This document shows, piece by piece, positions 32,086 to 47,081 of a stretch of 64,000 nucleotides of DNA. The DNA is from Streptomyces olivochromogenes (GTDB taxonomy: Bacteria > Actinomycetota > Actinomycetes > Streptomycetales > Streptomycetaceae), in contig NZ_KQ948476.1 of NCBI RefSeq assembly GCF_001514115.1, positions 25,263 to 89,262 of the forward strand. The letters run 5' to 3'. Each line of letters opens with the position of its first letter. Positions within the stretch are counted from its first letter, which is position 1. The notes under the pieces are model-generated. The model was given only the letters and a program-made list of their open reading frames with translations, did not search any database and was not told where the DNA came from. The position numbers and the translations under genes were made by a program.

Positions 32086-32463
32086 CCTGGATCCCTTCGG
32101 CCTGCCGGTGACGAGGACCATGCTGTCGGTGACGCCCCCGTTATGCCATGTGAACCGGGCCACTCCCGTCCATGCCCCTCTCGGAACACCGTGAACTCGG
32201 GGTGGACCGGCCAGGGCGGACGTACGTCGTCGCCCGCACGGGTGGTTCCCGCCACCATCATGGTGCCCCGCGTGCCCCGACGGATGCGTACCTGCCGCCG
32301 TACGACGGGGTCTCGGGCGGCGTCCTCGTGCACCGTCGTCAAGAAGCAACCGTCGGCCGCGGTTGGCAGATTGTCGCCGTTGACCCGTATGTACGGCACA
32401 TGACAGCGTCGGCCCTGCCCGGGCGGCAGGCCCCGGGCACATCCGCAGAGGGGACCGATCAGC
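32086..32463. other. Divergent promoter region, no gene
   Basis: This holds the promoters of pyc (minus) and the secreted protein gene (plus). No ORF, RNA or strong palindrome is apparent. Confidence 0.4.
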
Positions 32464-32937
32464 ATGGGCGGCAGACGGGCCACGTACACGGTGGCGGCGA
32501 CCACAACAGCCGCACTTCTTCTCGGAGTCTCGGGCACGGCGGCCGCGGCCGCCGCCGGGCCTTCCCCGGCCGCGACACCCCCGGCAGCCGTGCACGCCTT
32601 GGGCCAGAGCGACTTCTCCCCGGAGGAGGAGGCGCACCTGCGGGAGGTGGCCGCCTCCATCTGGAACGCCGACCTGGCCGCGGGCTGGAACATGAACCCC
32701 GACGTCGCCGACGTCCTCTCCCAGGCGACCGGGGAGATCCTCCGGTGCTCCGAGGCCTTCGCGCTGGTGCCCCGGCCGCCGGGTTTCCTCCCGGGCATCG
32801 GCTACCTGCTCAGTTACTGGAAGAACCTCAAGGACTACTTCCTCGTCGTGAAGGACAACCGGACCTATCGGGCCTGCGTGGTGACCGCGGCAGCGAACTA
32901 CCGGTCGGCGATCGAGATGGCGTCGATGGGCATCTGA
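32464..32937 (+). CDS. Secreted hypothetical protein
   Basis: A 157-residue protein with a Sec signal peptide: MGGRRATYTVAATTTAALLL then GVSGTAAAAAAG, cleavage likely near residue 29-31. The mature part after an Ala/Pro-rich linker is helical (DFSPEEEAHLREVAASIWNA) and has two cysteines (Cys99 region RCSEAF and YRACVV) that could pair. No family recognised. Start ATG 32464 is the only choice that gives a signal peptide. Confidence 0.7.
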   Translation: MGGRRATYTVAATTTAALLLGVSGTAAAAAAGPSPAATPPAAVHALGQSDFSPEEEAHLREVAASIWNADLAAGWNMNPDVADVLSQATGEILRCSEAFALVPRPPGFLPGIGYLLSYWKNLKDYFLVVKDNRTYRACVVTAAANYRSAIEMASMGI

Positions 32938-33112
32938 CCGGCCGGCTGTGACGCTCCGCCACAGACCGTTCCAGGTCTCCGGGTCGTGGGCCATAGGTGG
33001 CAGAGTGCCCCGCGCCCGCGTGTGCCTCCCGTCCTGTTCCCTCACCGCACTGCACAATCGCCCCTGGTCAAGACGTACGGAGACGTCTCGGTGGACTGAG
33101 AGGTCAGGGCTG

Positions 33113-33847
33113 ATGGACAGAGCGGGACATCCCGATCGCAGAGTTCTTCTCGTCGGCGGTCTCGTGGCCGCCACGGCCACGCTTGCGGGGTGTTCGCCGA
33201 CGATCGCGGCCTCGTCGGCGACCAGCGCTCCGCCACAACCGCCACCGACCACGCCCGCCGCGGCGTTCACCAGACTGATGGAAGGCAACGAGCGCTGGGT
33301 GAGCGGCGATCTTCGACATCCCGACCGCGATCCGGACCGGCGCGAGTTCGTGGCCGAGAAGCAGGAACCCTTCGGGTCGATCCTCTCCTGCATCGACTCC
33401 CGGGTACCGCCCGAACTCCTCTTCGACACCGGTCTGGGTGACCTGTACGTGATGCGCACGGGCGGGGAGGCCATCGGTCCGGTGGTCACCGGTTCCGTGG
33501 AGTACGGGCCCATGACGAGCGGCACTCCGCTCATCGTGGTGCTCGGGCATCAACGCTGCGGCGCCATCGAGGCGGCGTACAAGTCCATCCGTGACGGCAA
33601 ACCGCTGCCCGGCAATCTGGAGGCGATCGCCAAGGCCCTGCGTCCGGCGTACGAGCAGGCGGTCCATGGGGGCGGTGCCGACCTGGTGGATTCCATGGCC
33701 CGAGCGCAGGTCACGCTGACCGCTGCCGACCTGCGCTCCAATCAGGACCTGGCCCCTCTCGTGAAGAAGGGTGCCCTCGCCGTGGTCGGCGCCTACTACT
33801 CGCTCGACACCGGCAAGGTGGAAGTCCTGGCCGGAGCGCCCGCCTGA
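33113..33847 (+). CDS. Beta-carbonic anhydrase, lipoprotein
   Basis: A 244-residue zinc enzyme for CO2/bicarbonate interconversion, exported. The N-terminus has twin arginines (DRRVLLVGG) and the lipobox LAGC with Cys27 as the lipidation site, then a Ser/Pro linker. The beta-class zinc ligands are Cys93-x-Asp95-x-Arg97 (SCIDSRVP) and His146-x-x-Cys149 (GHQRCG). ATG 33113 gives the complete signal. A surface carbonic anhydrase would hydrate CO2 outside the cell; the proximity to pyruvate carboxylase, which uses bicarbonate, is suggestive only. Confidence 0.9.
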   Translation: MDRAGHPDRRVLLVGGLVAATATLAGCSPTIAASSATSAPPQPPPTTPAAAFTRLMEGNERWVSGDLRHPDRDPDRREFVAEKQEPFGSILSCIDSRVPPELLFDTGLGDLYVMRTGGEAIGPVVTGSVEYGPMTSGTPLIVVLGHQRCGAIEAAYKSIRDGKPLPGNLEAIAKALRPAYEQAVHGGGADLVDSMARAQVTLTAADLRSNQDLAPLVKKGALAVVGAYYSLDTGKVEVLAGAPA

Positions 33848-33930
33848 CAGGGCCGAGCCGCTGGCGGAGGGCACGGCCCGCATGACAGGGTCAGCCTGAT
33901 CGGACACAGGCGGGCGACGAGGATGAGTTC

Positions 33931-34503
33931 ATGGATGCACAGACGTGGGACGCGCTGGTGGAGTCGATGAAGAGCGCGTACTCCGCGGGGCTCGCCGAGG
34001 GTGCCGTGCCACGGCCGGTCATCATGCCGCTGGTGCGCGGCGAGTTGGTCGGCCTGATCTGGGTGCGGCCGACCGAGCCCGGCAAGGACGCGCTCACCGG
34101 CATCGCCGAACTCGCGAACATCGCCGCGGCGGCCGGGGCCGACGAGGTCGTTCTCGCCTGGGAGACCCACGACGTCGCCACCGCCTGCCAGTTGCCGATC
34201 ACCGGCCCGGTGCCCTGTCTGAACATGGTGCACGCCACGAAGGACGGCCATGTGCTGCACCAGTTCCCCTACACCGAACAGCCCCAGGCGCACTCCCCCG
34301 AGGGTCGGGGCTCGGCCGAGCCCGCATGGCTGCCCGCCATCGAGCCACAGCCGGGCGGCGAGTTGGTCCTTCCCGTCCGGGCCGCGGTCGACTACTCCTT
34401 CATCCCGCTCGAACTGGACCATCCCTCCCCGTTCGGCGTCACCGTCGTCCTCATGGAAGAAGACGGCTACAACGTCCGCCTGAACGAGGCGTTCGCCGGC
34501 TGA
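33931..34503 (+). CDS. Hypothetical soluble protein
   Basis: A 190-residue cytoplasmic protein: MDAQTWDALVESMKSAYSAG, PRPVIMPLVRGELVGLIWVR, IAELANIAAAAGADEVVLAW, and a Pro-rich C-terminal half ending in EEDGYNVRLNEAFAG. It looks like a single alpha/beta domain with no catalytic motif I can name. ATG 33931 lies after GACGAGGATGAG. It is probably monocistronic; a tandem repeat follows its stop. Confidence 0.6.
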   Translation: MDAQTWDALVESMKSAYSAGLAEGAVPRPVIMPLVRGELVGLIWVRPTEPGKDALTGIAELANIAAAAGADEVVLAWETHDVATACQLPITGPVPCLNMVHATKDGHVLHQFPYTEQPQAHSPEGRGSAEPAWLPAIEPQPGGELVLPVRAAVDYSFIPLELDHPSPFGVTVVLMEEDGYNVRLNEAFAG

Positions 34504-34519
34504 CCGCGACCTCGGCAGA

Positions 34520-34570
34520 ACGGTGACCTCCGCAGGACGGTGACCTCCGCAGGACGGTGACCTCCGCACC
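34520..34570 (+). repeat. Three tandem copies of a 17-bp unit
   Basis: ACGGTGACCTCCGCAGG occurs at 34520-34536 and 34537-34553, and with two changed end bases at 34554-34570. It lies in the intergenic space after the hypothetical gene. It could be slippage-derived or a protein-binding cluster. Confidence 0.85.
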
Positions 34571-34711
34571 CGTCGCGTGGGCGGTCTGTACGCCGCGGGC
34601 ATGATCCGCCTGGGTGGATCATGAGCAGAGGTCGTGTTCGGATGACGTCGCTCCGGAAGAGACGTCACACTCGGTGGGGCGTAGGCCTGTCGACAGGAGG
34701 TGGGCGGGCAC

Positions 34712-37009
34712 GTGCGGACATCCAGTCGAATCCGTCCCGGGTCGGTCGCGTCGTGGCTGCGCGACCGCGATCCCGAGCTGGCGGCGACCCGGCGTGCCGG
34801 GCGGACGGCACTCGTCATGCCCGCGCTGTTCGCCCTGTGCAGCCAGGTCATCGGCTCACCGACGATGGCGACCTTCGCCGCGTTCGGTGCGTTCTCGATG
34901 TTGCTGCTCGTTGATTTCACCGGCCCGATGGTGCAGCGGCTACGCGCCCACCTCGGCCTCGCGGTGGCCTGGGCCGTCCTGATCTGTCTGGGTACGCTCG
35001 TAGCCGACAAGACCTGGCTCGCGGTCACCGCCATGGTCGTCATCGGTTTCCTGGTGCTGTTCTCCGGGGTGGTCAGCTCCGTCCTCGCGGGCGCCTCGAC
35101 CGCGCTGCTGCTCGCCTTCATCCTCCCGGTGACCTCGCCCGTCTCGTTCGCGGCGCTTCCCGCCCGGCTCGCGGGAGCGGGCCTCGCGGCAGCCGCCTCC
35201 ATGCTCGCGGTCACCCTGCTGTGGCCCCGTCCCAGCGGGGACCCCCTCAGCGCACCCGCCGCCCGGGTCTGCTGTGCGGCCGCCGAGCAACTGCGCACCG
35301 ACGCGTCCCTCCTGGCGGGCGGGCCTGCCGCGCCGAGCACGGGTCAGTGCCGTACCAGAGCCGACGAGGCCGCCGCCGCGGCGGCCGAGCTGCGCACCGT
35401 CTTCGACGCCACCCCGTACCGCCCCACCGGCCTGTCCACCAGTTCGCGCGCCCTCGTCCGTCTGGTCGACGAACTGACCTGGCTCTGCAGCATCCTGGCC
35501 GACAGCGCGCCCCCGCTCGACGGTCGACCGGCCTGCGACATCGCCGCCCGGTCCGTACGGCTGGCCGTCGCGGCCGTACTCGACCAGGTGGCCGCGCTGC
35601 TCGACGCCCCGCGCGGCTCACCGGAGGAGCTGGACGCAGCCTCGGAGAGTCTGCGCAAGGCCATGGCCGATATGGAGCGCAACGCCACCACCCGGCTGCC
35701 CGTGGGCCGGGACGACGCCGGCACTCCCTCGCGGGTGCACCCCGTGATCGGAGCGCTGGACCTTTCGTTCCGCGCGCAGGAGCTGGGTTTCGCGACGCTG
35801 CAGATCGCGGACAACGTGACCCTGGCCGCGGCCGCCGAACGCCGCAGCTGGTTGGAACGCCTGCTGGGCCGCGAGCCCGACGCCGTGACCCGACCGCTGG
35901 CGGCGGCGCGCGAGCGGGCCGCCGCCCACCTCCAGCCGGGGTCCGTCTGGCTGCACAACAGCCTGCGGGGAGCGCTCGGCCTCGGCATCGCGGTCGGCCT
36001 CGCCAACGTGACCAGCGTCCAGCACTCGTTCTGGGTGCTCCTGGGAACCCTGTCCGTGCTGCGCTCGAATGCCCTCAACACGGGGCAGAACGCGGTCCGC
36101 GCCCTGGGCGGCACCCTCGCGGGTTCGATCATCGGCACCGGGCTGCTGCAACTGATCGGCCACCACGGGACGGCGCTCTGGTTCCTGCTGCCGCTCGCCG
36201 TGTTGCTCGCCGGCATCGCCCCCGCAGCCATCTCCTTCGCCGCCGGTCAGGCGTCCTTCACCGTCACTCTCGTCATCCTGTTCAACATCGGCCAGGACCC
36301 CGACTGGCACATCGTGCTGCTGCGGATCCAGGACATCGCCATCGGCTGCGCGGTGAGCGTGCTGGTGGGCCTGTTCTTCTGGCCGCGCGGCGCCACGGCG
36401 GCCGTCGACCGGGCGCTCGCCGAGGCGTACACGGACAGCGCCCGGTATCTGGCGGGCGCGGTGCAGTGTGCCATCGGCCACTGCGGCACCGCGCCCGGGC
36501 CTGCATCTGTCGAGGTCGCGCTGCGGGAGGGCGTCGAAGCTGCCGCGGCCGCGCGCAGGCTCGACGACGCGTTCCGCAGTTATCTGGCCGAACGCGGTGC
36601 CAAACCGGTGCCCCTGGCCGACATGACCACCCTGGTGACCGGCATCGTGGGGCTGCGCCTCGCGGCGGACGCGGTCCTGGGGCTGTGGCGGCGCGCCGGC
36701 GAACCGGACAGCGAGCCGAACCGGGCGGAGGCGGGCCTCGTGCTGCTGAGCGCCGCCGACCAGATCTCCGGCTGGTACCGGGATCTGGCCGCCGGTCTCG
36801 GGCACAACGCCGCCATCCGGGATCCGCTGCCGCGCAACCCCGTGGCCGAGGCACGGCTGGTCGAATCCCTCCGCCGCGACCTCAGCGACGAGCAGGGACA
36901 GGCCACGGACACGGCCGTCCGCATCATCTGGACCGCCGACCATCTCGACGCCGCGCGCCGGCTCCAACCGAGCCTGGTCGCCGCGGCGAGGCCCGACGGT
37001 CCGTCCTGA
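34712..37009 (+). CDS. FUSC-family inner-membrane transporter
   Basis: A 765-residue membrane protein with two hydrophobic halves (about 30-185 and 420-570), each followed by a soluble helical region, the layout of aromatic-acid-exporter/FUSC proteins. Visible segments include MPALFALCSQVIGSPTMATF, the conserved SVQHSFWVLLGTLSVLRSN (residues about 430), and GCAVSVLVGLFFWPRGA. It is expected to export small aromatic or toxic organic compounds. GTG 34712 is chosen for the AGGAGG at 34695-34700. It converges with the thioredoxin-like gene. Confidence 0.85.
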   Translation: MRTSSRIRPGSVASWLRDRDPELAATRRAGRTALVMPALFALCSQVIGSPTMATFAAFGAFSMLLLVDFTGPMVQRLRAHLGLAVAWAVLICLGTLVADKTWLAVTAMVVIGFLVLFSGVVSSVLAGASTALLLAFILPVTSPVSFAALPARLAGAGLAAAASMLAVTLLWPRPSGDPLSAPAARVCCAAAEQLRTDASLLAGGPAAPSTGQCRTRADEAAAAAAELRTVFDATPYRPTGLSTSSRALVRLVDELTWLCSILADSAPPLDGRPACDIAARSVRLAVAAVLDQVAALLDAPRGSPEELDAASESLRKAMADMERNATTRLPVGRDDAGTPSRVHPVIGALDLSFRAQELGFATLQIADNVTLAAAAERRSWLERLLGREPDAVTRPLAAARERAAAHLQPGSVWLHNSLRGALGLGIAVGLANVTSVQHSFWVLLGTLSVLRSNALNTGQNAVRALGGTLAGSIIGTGLLQLIGHHGTALWFLLPLAVLLAGIAPAAISFAAGQASFTVTLVILFNIGQDPDWHIVLLRIQDIAIGCAVSVLVGLFFWPRGATAAVDRALAEAYTDSARYLAGAVQCAIGHCGTAPGPASVEVALREGVEAAAAARRLDDAFRSYLAERGAKPVPLADMTTLVTGIVGLRLAADAVLGLWRRAGEPDSEPNRAEAGLVLLSAADQISGWYRDLAAGLGHNAAIRDPLPRNPVAEARLVESLRRDLSDEQGQATDTAVRIIWTADHLDAARRLQPSLVAAARPDGPS

Positions 37010-37029
37010 CCCGGGGGCGGCGCCCGAGG

Positions 37030-37569
37030 TCAGACCGCGGCCTTCGAGCGCGCCGGCAGGCGGCCGGGGTCGAAGGCGGTGGCACTGAGGGTGCCGTCGG
37101 CGGTGATCAGGCCGAAGACCGGGTATCCGGTGATGTCGAAGGCCTCGCCGAGCGGCCCGTCGCCCGGCTCGACCACGACGTGGGCGACCTCGGACAGCGC
37201 CGCCACCTGCTCGCGGGCCTCCTCGTCGGTGCCGTGCACGACGGCCAGGACGCTGCGACCGGTCTCGCGGGCCGTGGTGCGGGCCTGCTCCACGAAGAGC
37301 GGCAGCCGCTCCTTGCAGGCCCGGCAGTCGGGCGAGAAGAAGCCCAGCATGGTCTCGCCGAGGCCCTCGCGAGTGATCCGCTCACCGGCGGTGGTGACGG
37401 CGGAGAAGCCGGGGACGGCGGAGCCGGCCGGGATGATCAGGCCGTCCGCCACCCGGTCGGCCTTCTCGTCGGCCTGGGCGCGGAGTTTGCGTATGACGCC
37501 GAAGGTGAGCAGCAGGTTCAGCAGACAGAGCACGGCGATGAGGACGACGGCGGTGACCAGAAAGGGCAT
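37030..37569 (-). CDS. Membrane-anchored thioredoxin-like (TlpA/redoxin) protein
   Basis: A 179-residue protein with one N-terminal helix (FLVTAVVLIAVLCLLNLLLT) acting as signal anchor, so the thioredoxin domain faces outside. The active site is Cys82-Arg-Ala-Cys85 (FFSPDCRACKERLP), and a cis-proline loop GYPVFGLI is present near 150. Such proteins pass electrons or disulfides to substrates. It lies 213 bp downstream of a MauE-like gene on the same strand. In methylamine-dehydrogenase and related loci MauE and a thioredoxin-like MauD work together. Divergent to the six-cysteine peptide genes, it is inferred to help fold them. Confidence 0.8.
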   Translation of the reverse strand: MPFLVTAVVLIAVLCLLNLLLTFGVIRKLRAQADEKADRVADGLIIPAGSAVPGFSAVTTAGERITREGLGETMLGFFSPDCRACKERLPLFVEQARTTARETGRSVLAVVHGTDEEAREQVAALSEVAHVVVEPGDGPLGEAFDITGYPVFGLITADGTLSATAFDPGRLPARSKAAV

Positions 37570-37782
37570 GGGTGACTCCGGGGTCTCGTGTCATCGTGGG
37601 GCGGGGTGTCCGCCCATCGGATCGCGGGATGCGACGGCGCGACGCTGCACGGGTGTGCCGCGCGCCGTGGTGCGGCGGCGGCTGCGACGGGTGCGTCGCG
37701 GCGGCCGCCACGGTGGTGTGTGAACATCAACCGCCCGGGAAATCGGGAGGGTTGTCGCCTACCGGGTCGCCTGCCCGGGTGC

Positions 37783-38343
37783 CTACGGGGCTGATCCGCG
37801 AACGCGTCCCGAGGTGCGTGTGGCGCCGTCCTCGAACAGCGTGCCCAGCTCGTCCGTGAAGATCACGAGCAGGGCGCCCACCAGCGCGCCGAACGCCGCG
37901 ATCAGCACGCCGGCCGCCTGGGCCGGCGCCGGCGTCCCCGCGAGGGCGGCGGCCAGACCGGACGCGGCCAGGACGAGCAGCACGGTGTTCCGCACCACGT
38001 GGCGACGGCCGATCGGCGCGGTGGAAGCGCCGAAGCAGGCGCAGGACGCCTTGGTTCCGCTGCGGAGCGTACGGACGATTCCGGTGGTGAACGCGGCGAG
38101 CAGCAGCAGGGTCAGGACGAAGCCCGGCGCGCCGCCGGGCCCCAGGGCGAGCAGCACCACCGCGGCGCACTCCCCCACGACCACGGCCACCGCCACGAGG
38201 CGGCTCAGGCGGGCCGGAACGCCCATGGAACGGGTCGATTCCTCGAAGCCGCGGAAGGCCGCGGCGCCTCGTAGTTTTCCGGTCGCGGATGCCGCGAACA
38301 CGATGCCGACGAGGAGTCTGACGGCAAGCAGGGCGTAGGCCAC
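37783..38343 (-). CDS. MauE/DoxX-like redox membrane protein
   Basis: A 186-residue protein with four to five hydrophobic segments (residues 5-20, 47-67, 74-92, 113-130, 137-160). A cytoplasm- or membrane-edge Cys101-Ala-Cys103 pair in SCACFGAS is the hallmark CxC of MauE-like proteins; Cys59 lies in the second helix. The family is linked to disulfide exchange across the membrane. GTG 38343 has GGAGGTGAG upstream. It is transcribed away from the precursor-peptide operon, with 217 bp between the starts, and precedes the thioredoxin-like gene, its likely redox partner. Confidence 0.8.
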   Translation of the reverse strand: MAYALLAVRLLVGIVFAASATGKLRGAAAFRGFEESTRSMGVPARLSRLVAVAVVVGECAAVVLLALGPGGAPGFVLTLLLLAAFTTGIVRTLRSGTKASCACFGASTAPIGRRHVVRNTVLLVLAASGLAAALAGTPAPAQAAGVLIAAFGALVGALLVIFTDELGTLFEDGATRTSGRVRGSAP

Positions 38344-38560
38344 GAGCAGCTCTCACCTCCCGGGACGACTGGACCAGAGGCAATGTAGCCGCAAGTCGAC
38401 ATGAGCAACAGTGGCCACTTTCTCCCACATCTCCCCAGGCGAAACTGGAAGCAATCCGTCAACTTCCGCACTCTTGCGCTCAATTGGCATCGCAACATAA
38501 CTTCTGCTGCGGCCGGACCTTACCCCTGGTCCGGCCTTCACCCTACGAGGGAGGTCCGTG
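38344..38560. promoter_or_regulatory. Shared promoter region of the peptide locus
   Basis: This 217-bp divergent region is less GC-rich than its surroundings. A possible sigma-70-type promoter toward the peptide genes is TTGCGC (38474-38479), 16 bp, CATAAC (38496-38501). AGGGAGGT at 38548-38555 is the ribosome binding site of the first peptide. The promoter call is a guess from spacing. Confidence 0.4.
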
Positions 38561-38728
38561 ATGACCCGTGTGATCGGCACGATGGGCGACAAGTTGCTGG
38601 GCATGCTGCTGAAGGAGGACCGGGCCGGCGCCTGTGTCCCGGAGCACGGCACTTTCTGCAAGTGCACGAACCACGTCCGGTACGTCTTCAGCTGCAACGG
38701 CCCCTGTGTGAAGTCCGGCACCTGCTGA
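38561..38728 (+). CDS. Six-cysteine precursor peptide 1
   Basis: A 55-residue peptide. Residues 1-24 form a charged amphipathic leader (IGTMGDKLLGMLLKEDRAGA) without the hydrophobic core of a Sec signal. The core starts at Cys25 and holds six cysteines at 25, 33, 35, 45, 49 and 55. Ala22-Gly23-Ala24 just before Cys25 is an A-x-A site of the sort S26 signal peptidases cut, giving a 31-residue product with up to three disulfides. A strong ribosome binding site (AGGGAGGT) implies high expression. No known bacteriocin or lantibiotic family is recognised; no modification enzyme of the lanthipeptide, lasso or sactipeptide type is nearby. Confidence 0.8.
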   Translation: MTRVIGTMGDKLLGMLLKEDRAGACVPEHGTFCKCTNHVRYVFSCNGPCVKSGTC

Positions 38729-38774
38729 CCCAGCCCCATCCCGTCACATCACGTCGCACGACCAGGAGGTAGTC

Positions 38775-38945
38775 ATGAGGCGAATGATCGGCACGATGGG
38801 CGACCGGCTGCTGCGGCTCGTACTCGACGAGCAGCGCGCGGGGGCGTGCGTCCCCGAGGTGGGTCAGCTCTGCTATTGCAAGAGCGGACACCAGTACCGA
38901 TTCGCGTGTAACGGCGTGTGCACCAAGCGCAGCAACACCTGCTGA
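38775..38945 (+). CDS. Six-cysteine precursor peptide 2
   Basis: A 56-residue paralogue of the preceding peptide. Leaders align residue by residue (IGTMGDRLLRLVLDEQRAGA), all six cysteines are kept at 25, 33, 35, 45, 49 and 56, and CNG-x-C plus a closing N/G-T-C are shared; the intervening core residues have diverged. That pattern (fixed leader and cysteines, variable loops) is what is expected of a two-component or duplicated secreted peptide. CCAGGAGGT precedes ATG 38775. Its stop overlaps the ABC exporter start (TGATG), so exporter synthesis is coupled to it. Confidence 0.8.
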   Translation: MRRMIGTMGDRLLRLVLDEQRAGACVPEVGQLCYCKSGHQYRFACNGVCTKRSNTC

Positions 38946-40831
38946 TGACGCACTCCGACCCACCTGCCGGTTCCCCGGAGGCCGCTTCGCCTCCGGGGAA
39001 CCGGCTGCGGGCCCGCGCGGCATGGGCCGCGGTCGCCCTCCAGTTCCGCGCCACACCCGTCGGCGCTTCCCTGCTGTTCGGGGTGACCGTGGGAGTCGGT
39101 GTGACGCCGGCCGCCGCCGCCTGGCTCGCCAAGCTGCTCTTCGACGAACTCGGCCGCGGTGCGCACGCCGACGCGCGGCACGCCGTCAGCCTCGGCATCG
39201 CCACCGCCGCACTGGGCGCCCTGTCCGCCGTCCTTCTTCAACTGGCCGCGTATCTGGATGAGTTGGTGCGCAGACGCCTCGTCGTCGAAGTCGAGCGGAC
39301 CCTGTTCGCCAAGGTCGACGAGTTCCGGGGACTGCGGCGGTTCGAGGATCCCGCGTTCCACGACCGACTGCGGCTCGCCCAGCAGGCCTCGGAGGACGCA
39401 CCGCACAACGTCACCATGTTCACCCAGGAGGCCGTGCGTTCGGTGGCCGCGCTCAGCGGCTTCACGGGCGCCCTGCTCGCCGTCTGGCCGCCGATGGTGG
39501 GCCTTTTGTTCCTGGTCGGCGCCGCCGCACTGCTGGCCCGGCTGTCGCTGGCCCGCCGCCAGGTGGTGGTCTGGGAGCTGACCTCCGCCCGGCTGCGCCG
39601 CCACCTCTTCTACCGCTCACTGCTGACCGACCCCCGCGCCGCCAAGGAGATCCGGCTGTTCGGCCTCGGCGGCTTCCTGCACGGCCGGCTGATCCGCGCG
39701 CTGAACGACGCCACCGAGGCCGAACTCGCGGTGGCCCGGCGTGGCGCCCTCGTGCAGTCGGCTTTCGCCGCGCTCAACGCCCTGGTCGCCGGGCTCGGTA
39801 CGGTCGTGGTGGTCGCGGGCGCGGCCCACGGCAGATTCACGATCGGCGATGTGACACTGTTCGTCGCCGCCGCCGCGGGAGTGCAGGGGGCGTTCACCGG
39901 GATCGTGCTCCAGGCCGGATCGGCCGCGGAGGGCGTGCGGCTCTTCGGCCACTATCTCGACCTGCTCGACACCCCCGACGACCTGCCTCGGGGCGAGGCC
40001 CCCGCGCCGGCCCTCACCGGACGAATCGAACTGCGCGACGTCTGGTTCCGCTACGACACCTCCGGCCCCTGGGTACTGCGCGGGGTGAACCTGACCGTCC
40101 CGGCGGGCGCCGCGATGGGCCTGGTGGGCCGCAACGGTGCCGGCAAGAGCACCCTCATCAAGCTGCTCTGCCGGTTCTACGACCCCGAACGCGGCGCGAT
40201 CCTCTGGGACGGCACCGACATCCGGACCATGGACGTGGCCGAGCTGCGCCGCCGGATCGGCGTCACGTTCCAGGACTACATGACGTACGACCTCTCGGCG
40301 GCCGAGAACATCGGCATCGGCGATCTGCCGTACCGCGAGGACCTGGAGCGCGTCCGGGACAGCGCGCGGCTCGCCGGCATCGACGCGACCCTGCGCGGCC
40401 TCCCCGACGGGTACGAGACCCAGCTCAGCCGGGTCCACCTCGACGAGGAGGACGGTACCCCCGGGGTCACCCTCTCCGGTGGCCAGTGGCAACGAGTCGC
40501 GCTGGCACGTTCGTTGATGCGCACCGACGCCGATCTGCTGATCCTGGACGAGCCCAGCTCGGGCCTGGACCCGGAGGCCGAGCACGAGGTGCACCGCACG
40601 CTCGGTCGCCACCGCCTGGGACGGACCGCGCTGTTGGTCTCACACCGGCTCGGTGCCCTGCGCGACGCGGACGCGATCGCCGTGCTGGTGGACGGCCGGA
40701 TCGCCGAACTCGGCTCCCACGACGAGCTGATGGCCCTGGGCGGCGGCCACTACGCCCGGCTGTTCGGCCTGCAGGCGGCGGGCTACGCCGAGCGCGCCGA
40801 CCGGGGCAGGACCACGGAGGCGGCCACATGA
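38945..40831 (+). CDS. ABC exporter (fused membrane and ATPase domains) of the peptide locus
   Basis: A 628-residue half-transporter: about six membrane segments over residues 40-310, then the ATPase with Walker A GRNGAGKST (395-403), Q-loop VTFQDYMTYD, signature LSGGQWQR (about 510) and Walker B LLILDEP (about 532). It has no N-terminal C39 peptidase domain, so leader removal must be done by another protein; the S26 peptidase gene follows. ATG 38945 is chosen because it overlaps the peptide-2 stop; an upstream in-frame start would lie inside that gene. It is inferred to export the two peptides as a homodimer. Confidence 0.85.
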   Translation: MTHSDPPAGSPEAASPPGNRLRARAAWAAVALQFRATPVGASLLFGVTVGVGVTPAAAAWLAKLLFDELGRGAHADARHAVSLGIATAALGALSAVLLQLAAYLDELVRRRLVVEVERTLFAKVDEFRGLRRFEDPAFHDRLRLAQQASEDAPHNVTMFTQEAVRSVAALSGFTGALLAVWPPMVGLLFLVGAAALLARLSLARRQVVVWELTSARLRRHLFYRSLLTDPRAAKEIRLFGLGGFLHGRLIRALNDATEAELAVARRGALVQSAFAALNALVAGLGTVVVVAGAAHGRFTIGDVTLFVAAAAGVQGAFTGIVLQAGSAAEGVRLFGHYLDLLDTPDDLPRGEAPAPALTGRIELRDVWFRYDTSGPWVLRGVNLTVPAGAAMGLVGRNGAGKSTLIKLLCRFYDPERGAILWDGTDIRTMDVAELRRRIGVTFQDYMTYDLSAAENIGIGDLPYREDLERVRDSARLAGIDATLRGLPDGYETQLSRVHLDEEDGTPGVTLSGGQWQRVALARSLMRTDADLLILDEPSSGLDPEAEHEVHRTLGRHRLGRTALLVSHRLGALRDADAIAVLVDGRIAELGSHDELMALGGGHYARLFGLQAAGYAERADRGRTTEAAT

Positions 40832-40856
40832 GCCGCCCGGAACGGAAGACGGCCAT

Positions 40857-41312
40857 ATGACGGGTGCGGGGCGGACGACGGTGGCGATGGCAGCGGGCGC
40901 GGGCATGCTGCTCCTGTCCGTACGCGTACTGCGTTCACGCCTCGCCCTCATCAGGGTCACCGGGTCGAGCATGACCCCTGCCTTCGCGGACGGCGACCGG
41001 CTGCTGGTCCGCCGCACCACGCGCGTGCGACGCGGCGACGCGGTGGTCTTCCGCAACCCCGTCCCGTTCGGCGACGGCGACGACGCCCTGGCCTGGCTGG
41101 TCAAGCGGGTCTCCGCCCTGCCCGGCGATGCCGTGCCGCCCGATGTACGCGAGATCGTCGGGGCCCCGGACGGCGGCCGGGTGCCGCCCGGTTCCCTGAT
41201 CGTCCGGGGCGACGCCGCCCGCACGCAGGACTCCCGCCACTTCGGTTACGTCCCCCAGTCGTCCCTGCTGGGCGTGGTACTCACCCGCCCGACTCCCCTC
41301 GGCCGCCCCTGA
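40857..41312 (+). CDS. S26 family signal peptidase of the peptide locus
   Basis: A 151-residue serine/lysine peptidase with one N-terminal membrane segment (about 8-22). The nucleophile motif is GSSMTPAF with Ser38, and the general base is Lys83 in WLVKRVSALPGD; a C-terminal box GDAARTQDSRHFGYVP matches GD-x-x-x-x-SxDSR-x-xG. It is shorter than housekeeping LepB proteins. Twenty-five bases separate it from the exporter gene, so it belongs to the same operon. It is inferred to cut the exported peptides after AGA. Confidence 0.85.
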   Translation: MTGAGRTTVAMAAGAGMLLLSVRVLRSRLALIRVTGSSMTPAFADGDRLLVRRTTRVRRGDAVVFRNPVPFGDGDDALAWLVKRVSALPGDAVPPDVREIVGAPDGGRVPPGSLIVRGDAARTQDSRHFGYVPQSSLLGVVLTRPTPLGRP

Positions 41313-41499
41313 ACCCGCCGCCACGGCGGTGTCCGCTCGGGGCAATCCGCGGAATGCCGCGCTTCTCGTGTGCCCCTCGCATACGCCCCTAGCACACCCC
41401 CCTTCTTTCACGACGTGAACTCACATACGCCGGAAGGACTTTCCCGACTTCACCTCTTGACGTACGGAGTGACGGGGAGCACATTGTCCGCGCAGCTGC

Positions 41500-41536
41500 T
41501 TTGAGAGCGCTCTCAAAGAACGTCGGAGCGCTCTCG
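41500..41536. promoter_or_regulatory. LacI-family operator-like palindrome and second half-copy
   Basis: TTTGAGAGCGCTCTCAAA at 41500-41517 is a perfect 18-nt palindrome of the form TGAGAGCGCTCTCA, close to operators of CebR-type LacI regulators of sugar use. A second copy (GGAGCGCTCTC) follows at 41525-41535. Both lie 42-78 bp before the GH16 start and would repress both glucanase genes until an oligosaccharide inducer arrives. Confidence 0.7.
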
Positions 41537-41577
41537 CCACCACCCGCGCACCCCACTCCGTACCCGAAGAGGCACCC

Positions 41578-42993
41578 ATGAGTGAACCCTCCGGCACGCC
41601 TGTCAGACGCGGCTCCCTACGCCGCGTCCTCATCGCCGTGTTCAGCGCCCTCGGCCTCGCGGCCGCCGCGGCGGCGGCCGCCACCCTCCCCGCCAACGCG
41701 TCCGCCCCGACGCCCCCGTCCGGCTGGTCCCAGGTCTTCCTCGACGACTTCGACGGAGCCGCCGGCTCCGGCATCAACAGCTCGAACTGGCAGTACACGA
41801 CGGGCACGAGCTACCCCGGCGGCCCGGCCGGCTTCGGTACCGGCGAGGTCGAGACGATGACCTCCAGCACCAACAACGTCTCGCTCGACGGCGCCGGAAA
41901 CCTGCGGATCACCCCGCGGCGCGACGCCGCGGGCAACTGGACGTCGGGCCGCATCGAGACGAACCGCTCCGACTTCCAGCCGCCCGCCGGCGGCAAGCTC
42001 CGCGTCGAGGCCCGGCTCCAGATGCCGAACGTGACCGGCGCGGCGGCCAAGGGCTACTGGCCAGCCTTCTGGATGCTGGGTGCCCCGTACCGCGGCAACT
42101 GGTGGAACTGGCCCGGCGTCGGCGAGCTGGACATCATGGAGAACGTCCAGGGCATCAACAACGAGTGGGCCACGATGCACTGCGGCACCAGCCCGGGCGG
42201 CCCCTGCAACGAGAAGTCCGGCATCGGCGGCCAGAAGGTCTGTGCGGGCACGACCTGCCAGGGCGGCTTCCACACCTACGCCGTGGAGTGGGACAAGTCG
42301 ACCAGCCCCGAGGAGATGCGCTTCTACCTCGACGGCGTCAACTTCCACACGGTCAGGCAGAATCAGGTCGACGCGACGACCTGGGCCAACGCCACCAACC
42401 ACGGCTACTTCATCATCCTGAACGTCGCGATGGGCGGCGAGTTCCCGGCGGCATTCGGCGGCGGCCCCGACGGCGGCACGGACCCCGGCCACCCGCTCGT
42501 GGTCGACTACGTCCAGGTGCTCCAGTCGACCGGCGGTGGCGGCACGACCCCGCCACCCACGACCCCGCCGCCTTCCGGCAACCGTGACGCGTACAACGCG
42601 ATCCAGGCCGAGTCGTACGACGGCCAGGCGGGCGTCGGTACGGAGACCACCACCGACACGGGCGGCGGCCAGAACATCGGCACGCTCGCGAACGGCGACT
42701 ACGCGCTCTACAAGGGTGTCGACTTCGGCACCGCGGCGGCCAGGCAGTTCTACGGCCGGGTCGCGAGCGGCGCGGCGGGCGGTGTCAGCGGACTGGTCGA
42801 AGTGCGTCTCGACAGCCGCACCAGCACGCCGATAGGCAGCTTCGCGGTGGCCAACACCGGTGGCTGGCAGACGTGGAAGACGGTCCCCGCGAACATCAGC
42901 TCCGTCACCGGAACCCACGACGTCTATCTGACCTTCACCAGCGGCCAGCCCGCGGACTTCGTGAACGTCAACTGGTTCGACTTCGGGCACTGA
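41578..42993 (+). CDS. Secreted GH16 beta-1,3-glucanase with C-terminal CBM6
   Basis: A 471-residue exported enzyme. The signal peptide runs to about residue 42 (cut near ANA-SAP). The GH16 domain (about 47-310) has the catalytic set Glu183-x-Asp185-x-x-Glu188 in GELDIMENV, with the GYWPAFWMLG aromatic strand. A Pro/Thr/Gly linker (TPPPTTPPPSG) leads to a CBM6-like domain (AIQAESYDG ... VNVNWFDFG). It would hydrolyse beta-1,3-glucans such as laminarin or fungal wall. It is followed after 15 bp by the GH64 gene, and both are under the LacI-type palindrome. Confidence 0.93.
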   Translation: MSEPSGTPVRRGSLRRVLIAVFSALGLAAAAAAAATLPANASAPTPPSGWSQVFLDDFDGAAGSGINSSNWQYTTGTSYPGGPAGFGTGEVETMTSSTNNVSLDGAGNLRITPRRDAAGNWTSGRIETNRSDFQPPAGGKLRVEARLQMPNVTGAAAKGYWPAFWMLGAPYRGNWWNWPGVGELDIMENVQGINNEWATMHCGTSPGGPCNEKSGIGGQKVCAGTTCQGGFHTYAVEWDKSTSPEEMRFYLDGVNFHTVRQNQVDATTWANATNHGYFIILNVAMGGEFPAAFGGGPDGGTDPGHPLVVDYVQVLQSTGGGGTTPPPTTPPPSGNRDAYNAIQAESYDGQAGVGTETTTDTGGGQNIGTLANGDYALYKGVDFGTAAARQFYGRVASGAAGGVSGLVEVRLDSRTSTPIGSFAVANTGGWQTWKTVPANISSVTGTHDVYLTFTSGQPADFVNVNWFDFGH

Positions 42994-43008
42994 CGGGAGA
43001 GTTGACGG

Positions 43009-44532
43009 ATGATCGCATATCTCCCGGCCAGGTCCAGGAGGTCACGCCCCGGGGTCAGGCGGCTGGTGACGGCCGTCCTGACCGCCCTCCTCACGGTGCT
43101 GGCGCTGGGTCTGGCCGGGGCGGTGCCCGCGAAGGCCGCCGCCGACTACACCCAGGGCGTCACCTCGACCGGTTCCGGTTCGGTCCAGATCTGGTTCAAG
43201 CCGACCACCCCCGCATCCCTGGTCGACGTGCACTACCTGTCGGCCGGCGCCGGCCAGCAGAACTTCCGGATGACGAACAACGCGGGCACCTGGCAGCAGA
43301 ACGTCACCGGCCTACCGAGTGGCTTCACCCTGGAGTACTGGTTCACGTACGAGAAGAGCGGCCCGCTCTACGACACCCCGCACTTCACCTACTCCACCGG
43401 CAGCGGCGGCGGAGGGAGCGGGGGCGGGGGCGGCAGCTTCCCGATCACCTTCCAGAACAACACCCGTGGCACGTACACCGACGCACAGATCCACGTCACC
43501 GTGCTCGGCCAGGTGACGCCCGGTCAGTGGTCGTACATGAAGGCCGACGGAACCATGACCCACATCAACCACCTGGACGCGAACGCGCCCGGACACCTGA
43601 CCAAGAACGGCGTGAACTACCCGAACATGTCGTTCACGCTCGCCCAGTCGGGCGGTTCGGTACCGTCGCCGACGTCGATCCGCGGCGGGCGGATCTACGT
43701 CTCCCTCGGCTCCCCGCTGTACATCCCGGTCTCCCCGGACGACCAGGGCTGGGGCGGCCCCGACCTGCGCAATCCGAACGACCCCAACACCGACGTCTAC
43801 TACGACTGGTACGAGTACACGTACGTCTTCGGGCAGGTGGCCTTCGGCGGCAACACCACCCAGGTCGACCAGTTCGGCTTCCCGATGACCTCACGTCTGA
43901 CGCAGACGTCGAGCGGCTACGACACCACCCGCGGCATCACACTGACCCGCGCCCAGGTGATGTCCCAGTACGCCGCCTCGGTGGGCGCGGCCTTCAAGCC
44001 GCTGCAGAACACCTACCGGATCATCGCGCCGCGCTCCTCCAATCTCTTCCTCACGGGAGGCTCCCAGGCGAACTACCTCCAGTCGACCATCGACCAGACC
44101 TGGTCCTACTACTCCACGCACCCCTTCAGGCTGACCCGGCTCGGTGAGACCTTCACCGGCGGTGTCTCCGGGACCACGCTCACCTTCACCAAGAACGGCG
44201 CCGGTCCCTACGCGCTCCAGAAGCCGTCCTCCCCGGACGTCGTGGCCTGCTCGGGCGCGCTGGCCTCGGGCAGCGACCCGGAGAAGCAGCTCGGCGCGGA
44301 GTTCTGCGCCGCGTTCAACCGGGGCGTGGCCCTCGACACCTCGGCCTGGTACACCCCGTCCGCCTACTACACCGGAGGCATCAAGAACGACTACGCCGCC
44401 TTCCTCCACACCGTCGGCCTCGACCGGCGCGCCTACGCCTTCCCCTACGACGACATCAACGACCAGTCGTCCGTGCAGATCCTGGGCAACGCGAACCCGC
44501 CGACCGCCCTGACGCTCGGCATCGGCTGGTGA
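43009..44532 (+). CDS. Secreted GH64 beta-1,3-glucanase with N-terminal CBM56
   Basis: A 507-residue exported protein. The signal peptide ends near AKA-AAD (residue 43). Residues 45-130 form a CBM56-like beta-1,3-glucan-binding domain (DVHYLSAGAGQQNFRMTNNA). A Gly/Ser linker follows, and then the GH64 thaumatin-like catalytic domain (GRIYVSLGSPLYIPVSPDD, DWYEYTYV, ending DQSSVQILGNANP). GH64 enzymes release laminaripentaose from beta-1,3-glucan. The upstream GH16 enzyme should then degrade the same polymer, so the pair forms a small fungal-wall degradation operon. ATG 43009 follows GGGAGAG. Confidence 0.92.
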   Translation: MIAYLPARSRRSRPGVRRLVTAVLTALLTVLALGLAGAVPAKAAADYTQGVTSTGSGSVQIWFKPTTPASLVDVHYLSAGAGQQNFRMTNNAGTWQQNVTGLPSGFTLEYWFTYEKSGPLYDTPHFTYSTGSGGGGSGGGGGSFPITFQNNTRGTYTDAQIHVTVLGQVTPGQWSYMKADGTMTHINHLDANAPGHLTKNGVNYPNMSFTLAQSGGSVPSPTSIRGGRIYVSLGSPLYIPVSPDDQGWGGPDLRNPNDPNTDVYYDWYEYTYVFGQVAFGGNTTQVDQFGFPMTSRLTQTSSGYDTTRGITLTRAQVMSQYAASVGAAFKPLQNTYRIIAPRSSNLFLTGGSQANYLQSTIDQTWSYYSTHPFRLTRLGETFTGGVSGTTLTFTKNGAGPYALQKPSSPDVVACSGALASGSDPEKQLGAEFCAAFNRGVALDTSAWYTPSAYYTGGIKNDYAAFLHTVGLDRRAYAFPYDDINDQSSVQILGNANPPTALTLGIGW

Positions 44533-44547
44533 TCCACACGCAGTGAA

Positions 44548-44610
44548 GAGGGGGCGGCCTCGCAGGCCCGGCGTCGGAGAGCCAGGCGTCGTCGTTCGAG
44601 GCGCCCCCTC
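44548..44610. terminator. Terminator between convergent genes
   Basis: GAGGGGGCGGCCTCG (44548-44562) pairs imperfectly with CGAGGCGCCCCCTC (44597-44610) around a 34-base loop, between the GH64 gene and the MarR gene. Confidence 0.5.
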
Positions 44611-44641
44611 CCTCAGCAGGAGAGGGTTCTCCGCGGCCCGG

Positions 44642-45145
44642 TCAGCGGGGTGTGGTGCGCAGGTCGATGCCGCGGCGGTGGGCGTCGGAGGCCACGACCT
44701 GGGCCGCCAACTGGGACAGCCGCAGACGGTCGGCGTCCGGGAGCGGCGCGACGGACAGCTCGATCTGCTCGGCGAACTGTGCCGCGAGCTGTTCGATGAG
44801 CTGTCGGCCGGCGTCGGTGATGGACACCTGGAACGCGCGGCGGTCGTTGGCGCTGACGGTGCGCGTGACCAGGCCGCGACGCTGTGCACGGTCGACCAGG
44901 CCACTGATCGAGGACTTGTCCAGGCCGAGCAGCCGGCCGAGCTGGTTCATCGTCGGCTCCCGGTCCCGCAGCACCCCGAGCAGTCGCGCCTGGATGATCG
45001 ACAAGTCCTGCTGCCCGGCGATCTCGTCCAGGACGTTGTGCACCAGAAACGACAGCTGGGCGAGGGCGTCCACGTCCACCAGTCCGGGTTCCCCACCTGT
45101 GCGTGACGGTGCGGCCGAGGGCGGCGTGTCGTTGGGAGAAGTCAT
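44642..45145 (-). CDS. MarR-family transcriptional regulator
   Basis: A 167-residue winged-helix regulator. The DNA-binding region spans about 55-115: TMNQLGRLLGLDKSSISGLV recognition helix pair, then RRGLVTRTVSANDRRAFQVS beta wing with the DRR signature. It has an N-terminal Pro/Ser-rich tail and a long C-terminal dimerisation helix. It is divergent from an FAD monooxygenase with a large palindrome between, so it most likely represses both genes until an aromatic ligand binds. Confidence 0.92.
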   Translation of the reverse strand: MTSPNDTPPSAAPSRTGGEPGLVDVDALAQLSFLVHNVLDEIAGQQDLSIIQARLLGVLRDREPTMNQLGRLLGLDKSSISGLVDRAQRRGLVTRTVSANDRRAFQVSITDAGRQLIEQLAAQFAEQIELSVAPLPDADRLRLSQLAAQVVASDAHRRGIDLRTTPR

Positions 45146-45165
45146 GCTCCGATTCTACTTGCAAA

Positions 45166-45204
45166 GGTACGTGGCGCGAACTACTTTAGTTCGTGCCACG
45201 TACC
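45166..45204. promoter_or_regulatory. 39-nt near-perfect palindrome, MarR operator
   Basis: The arms are GGTACGTGGCGCGAACTA and its complement with one mismatched pair near the middle of each arm, centred on CTT. It starts 21 bp upstream of the MarR start and ends 68 bp before the monooxygenase start, suitable for autoregulation and divergent control. Confidence 0.75.
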
Positions 45205-45272
45205 AACCTTGGTGCGTCGCCTCCGAGCGTGCCGAACCGCTCGGACACCAACCGCCGACGGAGAGCTGAGCC

Positions 45273-47081
45273 ATGACTCACACCCTGGAAACTGACGTGA
45301 TCATCTGCGGAACGGGAGCGGCCGGATTAACCCTCGCCATTGACCTCGCCCGCCGGAATGTCGGATTCCTGCTGATCGACAAGGCGGCGCATCCGTTCAT
45401 CGGCTCACGCGGCAAGGGCATTCAGCCCCGAAGCCAAGAGGTGTTCGAGGACCTCGGCGTGATCGACCGGATCGTCGCCTCCGGCGGTGAGTACCCCGTC
45501 CAGCGTTTCCACACCGCCGAGGGACCGGTCGACAGGGCCACCGTCGAGATGTCGGATCCGACGCCGGACGAGCCGTACCAGATCCCGCTGCTCGTCCCGC
45601 AGTTCCTCACCGAGCGCCGGCTGCGGGAACGGCTGACCGAGCTCGGCCACGCCCCGCACTACAACCACGAACTCGTCGGCTTCGACCAGGACGCCGACGG
45701 TGTGACCGCACGGATCGCGACCCCTGACGGCGAGCGGACCGTGCGGGCCTCGTACCTGATAGGCGCCGACGGCGGATCGAGCTTCGTCCGCAAGGCCCTC
45801 GGCATCGGCTTCCCCGGCAAGACCCTCGGGGTCCGGGCGATCGTCGCGGACGTACTGGTCGATGGCGTCTCGTCGGATGCCTGGCACCGTTGGGGCGAGG
45901 ACACGGCGGCGCAGGTGTCGATGTGCCCGCTCTACGGCACCGACATGTTCCAGCTCCAGGCCCCGATCCCGTTCGATGTCGACATCGACCTTTCGGCCGA
46001 GGGGCTCACCTCGTTCTTCCGCGACCGCACCGGCCGGAGCGACGTCGTGATCCGTTCGGTGTCCTGGGCGTCCGCGTTCGAGATGAACGCCCGGCTGGCC
46101 GACACCTACCGGCGCGAGCGGGTGTTCCTGACCGGGGACGCGGCACACTGCCATCCGCCGACCGGCGGACAGGGCCTCAACACGAGCGTCCAGGACGCCT
46201 ACAACCTCGGCTGGAAACTCGCCGCCGTGCTCGACGGCGCCCCGGAATCGTTGCTGTCGACCTACGAGAAGGAGCGCCGGCCGATCGCCGAGGCAGTCCT
46301 CGGCCTCTCCGAGCGGCTGCTCGAAGCGGCCAAGAACCGCGACACCCACCGGGGCCGCGAGGTGAGTCAGCTCGATCTCGGCTACCTGGACTCGCCCTTG
46401 TCGATGACCAGTCCGGACCGCGACAACGGCGTCCTGGCCGGCGACCGCGCGCCCGACGCGCCCGTGACCGGCGCGGGTGGTCTCCCCACGCGCTTGTTCA
46501 GCCTGTTCCAGGGGCCCCACTGGACCCTGCTCGGCCACGACGTCGACGATGTCCCGGCACCGGCGCCGCGCAGCGGCCTGCACATCCACGTCATCGGCGG
46601 CGGGGGCGACATCCTGGACACCGGCGGCCATGTCCACAGCGCATACGGACTGTCGTCCGATCAGTGGGTGCTCGTCCGCCCGGACGGATACATCGCGGCC
46701 GTGGTCGGCACGGCCGAACTCGGCTCACTCGCCCCCTACCTCGACGCCGTCGGCATCCGCCCCGTGACGGTGACTCAGCCGCGCCACACGGAAACGAGCG
46801 CCGACATAGCCGCACCGAGCCGTTCGGCCGCCCCCCGCACCCGACGTGAGCACCGCCGGATCCGCAGCGCCGCCGAGGAGCGACTCGCCACCGCCCAACG
46901 CGAGCTCCATCAGCTCTCGCGCCAGGTCCAGCGCGACCTGCGCAGCGTCCGCCGGCAAGGGGAGACCACCGCGATCGTCGCCCGCTCGAACTTCGCCGAG
47001 CTCGCGGTCCAGAGCATCACCCGGCTGGCGGCCAACCTCCGCTCCGACCCCAGCGACCGAAGCGGCCGGGGCGACCGGTAA
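45273..47081 (+). CDS. FAD-dependent aromatic monooxygenase
   Basis: A 602-residue class A flavoprotein hydroxylase. FAD motifs are GTGAAG at 13-18, the DG segment YLIGADGGSSFVRK near 165, and the GD segment RVFLTGDAAHCHPPTGGQGLN near 285. A thioredoxin-like C-terminal domain follows (about 400-515), as in phenol or resorcinol hydroxylases. The last roughly 85 residues are unusual: a highly charged helical stretch (RTRREHRRIRSAAEERLATA) with coiled-coil character not normal for the family. It is under the divergent MarR gene and presumably oxidises an aromatic substrate. Confidence 0.88.
   Translation: MTHTLETDVIICGTGAAGLTLAIDLARRNVGFLLIDKAAHPFIGSRGKGIQPRSQEVFEDLGVIDRIVASGGEYPVQRFHTAEGPVDRATVEMSDPTPDEPYQIPLLVPQFLTERRLRERLTELGHAPHYNHELVGFDQDADGVTARIATPDGERTVRASYLIGADGGSSFVRKALGIGFPGKTLGVRAIVADVLVDGVSSDAWHRWGEDTAAQVSMCPLYGTDMFQLQAPIPFDVDIDLSAEGLTSFFRDRTGRSDVVIRSVSWASAFEMNARLADTYRRERVFLTGDAAHCHPPTGGQGLNTSVQDAYNLGWKLAAVLDGAPESLLSTYEKERRPIAEAVLGLSERLLEAAKNRDTHRGREVSQLDLGYLDSPLSMTSPDRDNGVLAGDRAPDAPVTGAGGLPTRLFSLFQGPHWTLLGHDVDDVPAPAPRSGLHIHVIGGGGDILDTGGHVHSAYGLSSDQWVLVRPDGYIAAVVGTAELGSLAPYLDAVGIRPVTVTQPRHTETSADIAAPSRSAAPRTRREHRRIRSAAEERLATAQRELHQLSRQVQRDLRSVRRQGETTAIVARSNFAELAVQSITRLAANLRSDPSDRSGRGDR

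Follow-up and report, generated by a model that had tools for sequence, protein, structure and literature searches.

A candidate cassette for secreted disulfide-stabilised peptides in Streptomyces olivochromogenes and its relatives among actinomycetes

Gene content of the locus

The window analysed here is a stretch of 64,000 nucleotides from Streptomyces olivochromogenes (assembly GCF_001514115.1, contig NZ_KQ948476.1, positions 25,263 to 89,262 of the forward strand), to which coordinates refer unless the locus of a relative is named. Between its positions 37,030 and 41,312 lie two adjacent genes for small cysteine-rich peptides, here called pepA and pepB, together with genes for an ATP-binding cassette (ABC) exporter, an S26-type peptidase, a MauE-like membrane protein and a thioredoxin-like protein. 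On the basis of sequence comparison, this locus is one member of a broad actinomycete family. Its features are as follows.

37030..37569, minus strand: membrane-anchored ResA/TlpA-like thioredoxin-fold protein, 179 residues, CRAC active site
37783..38343, minus strand: MauE/DoxX-family membrane protein, 186 residues, C-x-C-F-G motif
38561..38728, plus strand: precursor pepA, 55 residues, leader 1-24 ending in AGA, predicted core 25-55, six cysteines; orthologs in loci L019, L008, L009, L020 and L021
38775..38945, plus strand: precursor pepB, 56 residues, leader 1-24 ending in AGA, predicted core 25-56, six cysteines
38945..40831, plus strand: ABC half-transporter, 628 residues from its ATG, no C39 match
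40857..41312, plus strand: S26 signal-peptidase-I-type protease, 151 residues, single N-terminal hydrophobic segment, Ser in GSSMTP and Lys in KR

Start codons were picked by ribosome-site score. For pepA this is the ATG at 38561, from which a GGAGG is normally spaced; the mechanically called open reading frame (ORF) begins 3 nt earlier at a GTG. A GGAGG also stands in front of the pepB start (ATG 38775), and the stop of pepB is overlapped by the ATG of the ABC gene at 38945, which is followed by the S26 gene. The MauE and thioredoxin-like genes are found upstream of all these and divergent from them. Cysteines occupy positions 25, 33, 35, 45, 49 and 55 in pepA and 25, 33, 35, 45, 49 and 56 in pepB, and AGA immediately precedes Cys25 in both. 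A first-pass annotation of the window had described twin peptides with a shared leader and six cysteines, and its coordinates, cysteine positions and AGA motif were all confirmed. These two are the only copies that a genome search recovered from the window's own genome.

The machinery named in that annotation was recovered as well. In the exporter, ABC_tran was matched by Pfam and NCBIfam and a C39 leader peptidase domain by neither. The S26 protein passed the thresholds of Peptidase_S26 (69.4 bits, cut-off 22.9) and of signal peptidase I (65.6, cut-off 47) and carries the Ser-Lys catalytic pair, while the MauE protein reached 90.9 bits for a cut-off of 27. For the CRAC protein the Pfam Thioredoxin_8 match stayed below threshold, and its AlphaFold2 model (mean predicted local distance difference test score, pLDDT, 87.3) matched ResA/TlpA-type thioredoxin-fold domains of the Protein Data Bank (PDB; best E 1e-9) with ResA among the first. 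The protein combines C-x-x-C, a late conserved proline and, in the predicted model, a thioredoxin fold.

No Pfam or NCBIfam family was matched by pepA or pepB. The AlphaFold2 model of pepB (mean pLDDT 65.6) has a helix in the leader and three strands in the core. Its Foldseek comparison with the PDB gave nothing below E 2, for which reason the individual rows are meaningless.

Close relatives

In Embleya and in another Streptomyces, the two peptides with their six cysteines are again found next to the same exporter and the same S26 gene. Conservation of the peptide genes with the exporter in relatives, on which the first-pass annotation had staked its pathway beforehand, therefore holds. The twin peptides accompany the exporter, the S26 gene and the thioredoxin gene in Streptomyces sp. 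NBC_01549, there together with MauE, and at four loci of the Embleya type. One of these four is labelled Streptomyces sp. SID3343 yet grouped with the other three as genus g5. Versions of the locus with MauE and a single clear peptide were found in Streptomyces sp. CC208A, in NEAU-Y11 and in genome G395. In the latter, a second peptide-like frame follows the precursor (L025, 9361-9513); it has lost several conserved positions and is perhaps a decaying paralog.

The six cysteines are kept in all these close relatives, and the more distant L042 has CC in place of CxC. In seven ortholog pairs nonsynonymous divergence (dN) was lower than synonymous divergence (dS), for example 0.12 vs 1.16 for pepB of the window and of L021. 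Cysteine conservation among homologues thus stands within this subfamily, whereas in the wider family the spacing shifts and only the even number of core cysteines persists. In the same way, the pattern C-x7-C-x-C-x9-C-x3-C, proposed as a search key, marks one subfamily and is not a signature of the whole family.

A peptide-only search of the genus gave one further clear genome out of 392, a count that understates the family and was corrected by the MauE survey described below. Three more genus genomes gave weak matches in long frames that were taken as chance; G213, the one inspected, is without the machinery.

Distribution of the gene set

A peptide profile matched 13 of 394 genomes of the class, in several cases weakly; the leader is shared and the cores differ strongly. 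Of the 13 places other than the window's two, the surroundings of ten were examined: eight contain all four gene types, L049 is without ABC, and L044 has S26 and a distant ABC match only. The other three places (G770, G645, G861) were set aside as chance-like.

For the MauE survey, 12 MauE proteins, each taken from a previously found locus, were made into a profile, which matched 96 of 296 class genomes at E 1e-10. The strong set consists of 37 places with E up to 1.1e-26, a cut-off that was the analyst's choice with no wide gap below it; it comprises the window, six places from the peptide-profile surroundings and 30 others, all examined within 6 kb at fixed thresholds. Near these 37 places an exporter was found at 32, an S26 gene at 32, a thioredoxin-like gene at 35, all four genes at 31 and a precursor at 31. 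Seven of these places were known from their peptides and had contributed to the MauE profile; for the 30 places outside profile building, the figures are 25/30 for all four genes and 24/30 for a precursor. The next six places, a middle band with E 3e-25 to 5e-22, were analysed apart and none has all four genes. At the same thresholds, neither machinery genes nor a precursor were found at any of 20 control loci with weaker MauE, hand-picked from 86 weaker places. The proposal that leader, protease, exporter and folding partners form one coherent pathway at a single locus therefore has strong comparative support (31/37 vs 0/20). Gene order and strand follow 28 patterns over 48 loci with the same genes still together, so that the association calls for more than a frozen block.

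A SARP-type regulator was present within 7 kb of 25 of the 37 strong loci and of none of the 20 controls, most of which come from other families. The BTAD domain was confirmed in all three SARP-type regulators scanned. Such neighbours would be expected of specialised metabolites.

Most copies are in family f17, which a Nonomuraea match suggests, as a guess, to be Streptosporangiaceae. In a phylum-wide MauE survey 3 of 198 genomes matched at E 1e-20, two from the window's genus and one weakly (G897); at the locus of the latter, MauE and a thioredoxin-like match share one frame, and no ABC, S26 or precursor is present. On plasmids, tblastn with MauE gave nothing at 1e-15 and a search with the ABC protein gave 25 records. 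Plasmid pF1D18A of Streptomyces clavuligerus carries twin six-cysteine precursors annotated as hypothetical (L150, 4009-4501), directly followed by MauE, a hypothetical gene in the thioredoxin position, ABC and S26. A plasmid of Streptomyces atratus (L151) has a BTAD regulator, MauE, a hypothetical gene, ABC and S26 in a row, and no precursor was recognised there by the search pattern. Near another MauE/ABC locus (L117, 10836-11573), two long peptides with a six-cysteine tail and an unlike leader possibly belong to a different class.

Leader and core of the precursors

The curated set comprises 58 precursors from 44 loci, selected by patterns that required the leader shape and at least four cysteines and did not require parity. 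Frames in L020, L086, L093, L096 and L101 (4, 4, 4, 5 and 4 cysteines) were taken as chance and dropped before the counts, as were the L112-type precursor and the degenerate frame in L025. Overlap between the 58 and the machinery matches never exceeds 10 bases.

The leader is amphipathic, about 24 residues long (exactly 24 in 48/58) and ends in P-x3-A-x-A. Its hydrophobic moment exceeds the mean of its own shuffles in all 58. No Sec-type hydrophobic core was found in the leaders, the longest run free of R, K, D, E, H, N and Q being 3-9 residues in 57 and 12 in one; the hydrophobic h-region of Sec-secreted peptides is thus missing. Lipoprotein attachment at Cys+1 was considered and rejected, as there is no hydrophobic region and the first cysteine lies 0-7 residues past A-x-A.

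Cores measure 28-52 residues, with a net charge of 0 to +5 in 57/58. They contain six cysteines in 44 cases, eight in 12, ten in one and four in one, and never an odd number; the seventh cysteine of L098 is located in its leader. When grouped at 50% core identity, 33 clusters were obtained and none has an odd count. As an empirical null, 645 same-length C-terminal segments with at least four cysteines were taken from the same loci; 164 of them are odd, from which p is about 6e-5 for 0/33. A coin-flip parity test was dropped in favour of this null because the four-cysteine threshold itself favours even counts. The precursors recovered later are also even: six cysteines each in L144 and L147, six in each of the two from S. 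clavuligerus, four in one from Nonomuraea gerenzanensis and six in one from S. nigrescens. The terminal residue is a cysteine in 49/58 precursors, and chain closure by the protease or by the terminal cysteines is conceivable.

Mean pairwise identity among 32 representatives is 0.43 in the leader vs 0.29 in the core (0.24 without the cysteines). None of 36 precursors was matched by Pfam or NCBIfam at E 0.01, and a PDB sequence profile search with the precursors gave nothing better than E 0.58. In Phytomonospora endophytica (L024, 7998-8677), two orphan eight-cysteine precursors with AGA leaders have none of the four genes nearby, and a strong MauE match is present elsewhere.

Cleavage site and catalytic residues

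The site search was repeated without requiring a final alanine because the curation pattern had demanded it. In this search, Pro-type leaders carry A-x-A at a fixed distance in 30 of 32 distinct cores and V-E-A in the other two. Position -1 is therefore Ala in 32/32 and position -3 in 30/32, while -2 varies (S, Q, R, E, A, K, G, T). A-x-A corresponds to the -3/-1 rule of signal peptidases.

Over 49 loci examined, the Ser of S-M-x-P and the Lys of S26 are kept in 44/44 proteins found, the C-x-C of MauE in 44/44 and the C-x-x-C of the thioredoxin in 44/46. In four loci of family f19, which offer a natural contrast, a single open frame encodes the MauE and thioredoxin-like domains, an ABC gene is present and no S26 was found within 6 kb. 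Their precursors show no A-x-A before the first cysteine. The four loci are related and so count as one event.

L112, 9036-9218: sister-type precursor, eight cysteines, no A-x-A
L113, 8749-8931: sister-type precursor, eight cysteines, no A-x-A
L115, 8483-8665: sister-type precursor, eight cysteines, no A-x-A
L116, 7878-8063: sister-type precursor, eight cysteines, no A-x-A

Proposed mechanism and alternative readings

From the gene content, conservation, leader and core division, cleavage motif and catalytic and redox residues observed, we infer export, cleavage, folding and bioactivity of the peptides. The locus would be, with a probability of roughly three in four, a self-contained cassette for secreted disulfide-stabilised peptides. 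The precursor would be synthesised in the cytosol in reduced form. Its amphipathic leader, about 24 residues long, would serve as a handle for the dedicated ABC exporter, which would carry the whole precursor over the membrane. Outside, the membrane-anchored S26 protease would cut after A-x-A and release cores of 31 and 32 residues with cysteines at both ends. The anchored ResA/TlpA-like protein and MauE would then act as an oxidation/isomerisation pair to form three disulfides. The neutral monoisotopic masses expected for the predicted three-disulfide products are 3369.407 and 3547.513 Da. The product would be a secreted, regulated peptide, probably antagonistic (bacteriocin-like) or signalling.

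Several observations weigh against this picture. Relatives of ResA, CcmG and TlpA are often reductants, so isomerisation rather than oxidation may be the task of the thioredoxin. No SARP was found in the window from 29000 to 47000, and clustering of neighbouring ORFs of at least 100 residues, which does not cover smaller genes, revealed no recurrent immunity candidate. The link between S26 and A-x-A has a counter-case in L102, whose A-x-A precursor has neither an S26 nor an ABC gene within 6 kb. The set is also incomplete at L049 (no ABC at threshold), at L083 and L110 (MauE only), at L107 (S26 and precursor missing) and at L108 (ABC, S26 and precursor missing). Conversely, no precursor was recognised beside the four genes of L101 and L109, and a precursor was recognised in just two (L144, L147) of six later four-gene loci and in three of four named plasmid or genome loci. 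In Phytomonospora, MauE and exporter homologs are found only elsewhere in the genome from the two orphan precursors. The four Embleya-type loci are without MauE beside the peptides; in the two such genomes searched (G410, G426), MauE is present in another locus with all four genes. As for the controls, only 6 of the 20 come from f1 and f17, the families holding most strong places, and the gene models were partly built from strong loci. In a tree of 63 MauE proteins, the smallest split containing the 37 also takes five of the six middle-band and three of the 20 control proteins (support 0.68). The idea of a clean MauE clade was rejected on that tree, and the 37 are a score-defined group.

The alternative that best survives bears on the product, which might be a signal, a developmental peptide or a secreted protease inhibitor rather than an antibacterial, a possibility to be taken seriously even if it is not the expected one. 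It is consistent with the lack of a recurrent immunity candidate of at least 100 residues, with SARP neighbours, which fit developmentally timed products, and with a non-significant fold likeness to the 35-residue inhibitor SGPI-1 (rank 48, E 6.1). However, hypervariable, mostly cationic or neutral cores and within-locus paralogs suggest diversifying targets. Antagonism was taken as the first guess because the cores diversify fast, are mostly neutral to cationic and sometimes come in twos or threes, and because most relatives have SARP-type activators at their flanks. On these features an antagonistic peptide tends to be favoured, with signals or inhibitors kept as alternatives.

It is unlikely that the leader is removed, at A-x-A or at the double-glycine-like G-A, by an enzyme from another locus, either the general signal peptidase or a protease of the C39 type, with the S26 protein serving another role. 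The G-A pair that precedes Cys25 in the window is accepted by C39 enzymes, and no S26 is close to the A-x-A precursor of L102. Against this stand the near-invariant -1 and -3 alanines around a variable -2, the window exporter without a C39 match, and an S26 gene near 32/37 MauE places and 0/20 controls.

Metal binding through free thiols, as in metallothionein- or bufferin-like peptides with redox genes that keep the thiols reduced, is an improbable role. The peptides are small and cysteine-rich, ResA/TlpA proteins often reduce, and the MauE of the window scores weakly and below threshold (19.6 bits, cut-off 80) against the HvfX family of copper-RiPP maturation. This is opposed by the even counts in 33/33 divergent clusters and by the changes in spacing; in addition, no MNIO-type partner was noticed, though no search aimed at MNIO was made. 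Finally, that MauE and thioredoxin are unrelated neighbours, for example with methylamine or cytochrome c functions, would fit their divergent orientation in the window and the missing MauE of the Embleya-type loci, yet it is very improbable given four genes kept together in 31/37 loci despite rearrangement and in none of the 20 weaker-MauE controls.

Beyond the cassette itself, the balance tips slightly towards a widespread, unnamed class of disulfide-only natural products of Actinomycetes, defined by a fixed leader, a four-gene kit (ABC, S26-type protease, MauE, TlpA-like) and hypervariable cysteine scaffolds. As part of such a class, and with the same narrow preference, the family may be seen as a bacterial parallel to venom-type peptide diversification, and it is marginally favoured that orphan precursors can use the kit in trans.

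Relation to known systems

In its working the locus would be like a disulfide bacteriocin or a minimal pathway for ribosomally synthesised and post-translationally modified peptides (RiPPs). As in RiPPs broadly defined, there is a ribosomal precursor with a conserved leader and a variable core, and the processing and export genes are co-conserved. Class II bacteriocins are leader-bearing peptides exported by C39-ABC transporters, with which the locus shares a short leader, a dedicated ABC exporter and a disulfide core. It differs from them in the exporter without a C39 match, in A-x-A rather than a double glycine across the family (G-A in the window, -2 variable family-wide), in the separate S26 protein and in its own MauE/TlpA pair. 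Glycocins such as sublancin are served by thiol-disulfide helpers and are likewise small exported peptides with dedicated redox proteins. Here, however, no glycosyltransferase was found among the Pfam-scanned window neighbours, MauE takes the place of BdbB, and leader and protease are other. Nor was a lanthionine synthetase or lasso cyclase found among the Pfam-scanned window genes (33107-47078).

In methylamine dehydrogenase maturation, MauE and a thioredoxin-like partner, MauD, were proposed to make disulfides (cited in PMC7794033). The client in the present case would be a small exported peptide instead, and no other mau gene was noticed nearby, though no dedicated search was made. The closest precedent is decRiPPter (Kloosterman et al. 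2020, PMC7794033), whose main text reports, in a single paragraph, three candidate RiPP families of Streptomyces with mauE, one of them also with mauD, and suggests a role of MauE in modifying the precursors; the family characterised there is another. The likeness lies in the genus, MauE, a cysteine-rich precursor and the suspected modification role. Precursors there have at least eight cysteines, whereas those of the window have six; among the 58 relatives 12 have eight and one has ten. The main text of that paper contains no mention of 's26'. The first-pass annotation had called the locus undescribed. This stands insofar as no named class for the cassette was found in the open literature, subscription papers and supplementary tables being outside that scope, and does not stand in the sense of wholly unmentioned. 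The kind had already been glimpsed in decRiPPter, and it is the leader motif, the S26/A-x-A link, the cysteine parity and the breadth that were not found in the literature searched.

If the cassette works as proposed, the leader motif would be a means of finding a hidden family of cysteine-rich, secreted peptides in genera that produce antibiotics, with Streptomyces clavuligerus as one example, and a signal-peptidase-type enzyme would act as a dedicated leader protease after ABC export. In addition, MauE would gain a testable role in peptide disulfide formation, and the kit could serve for making disulfide peptides in bacteria.

Neighbouring genes

Downstream of the locus (41578-44532), adjacent GH16-CBM6 and GH64-CBM56 glucanase genes are likely unrelated. 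On the other side (34700-37009), a gene for a FUSC-family membrane protein adjoins the thioredoxin gene and is also found beside the locus in Streptomyces sp. NBC_01549.

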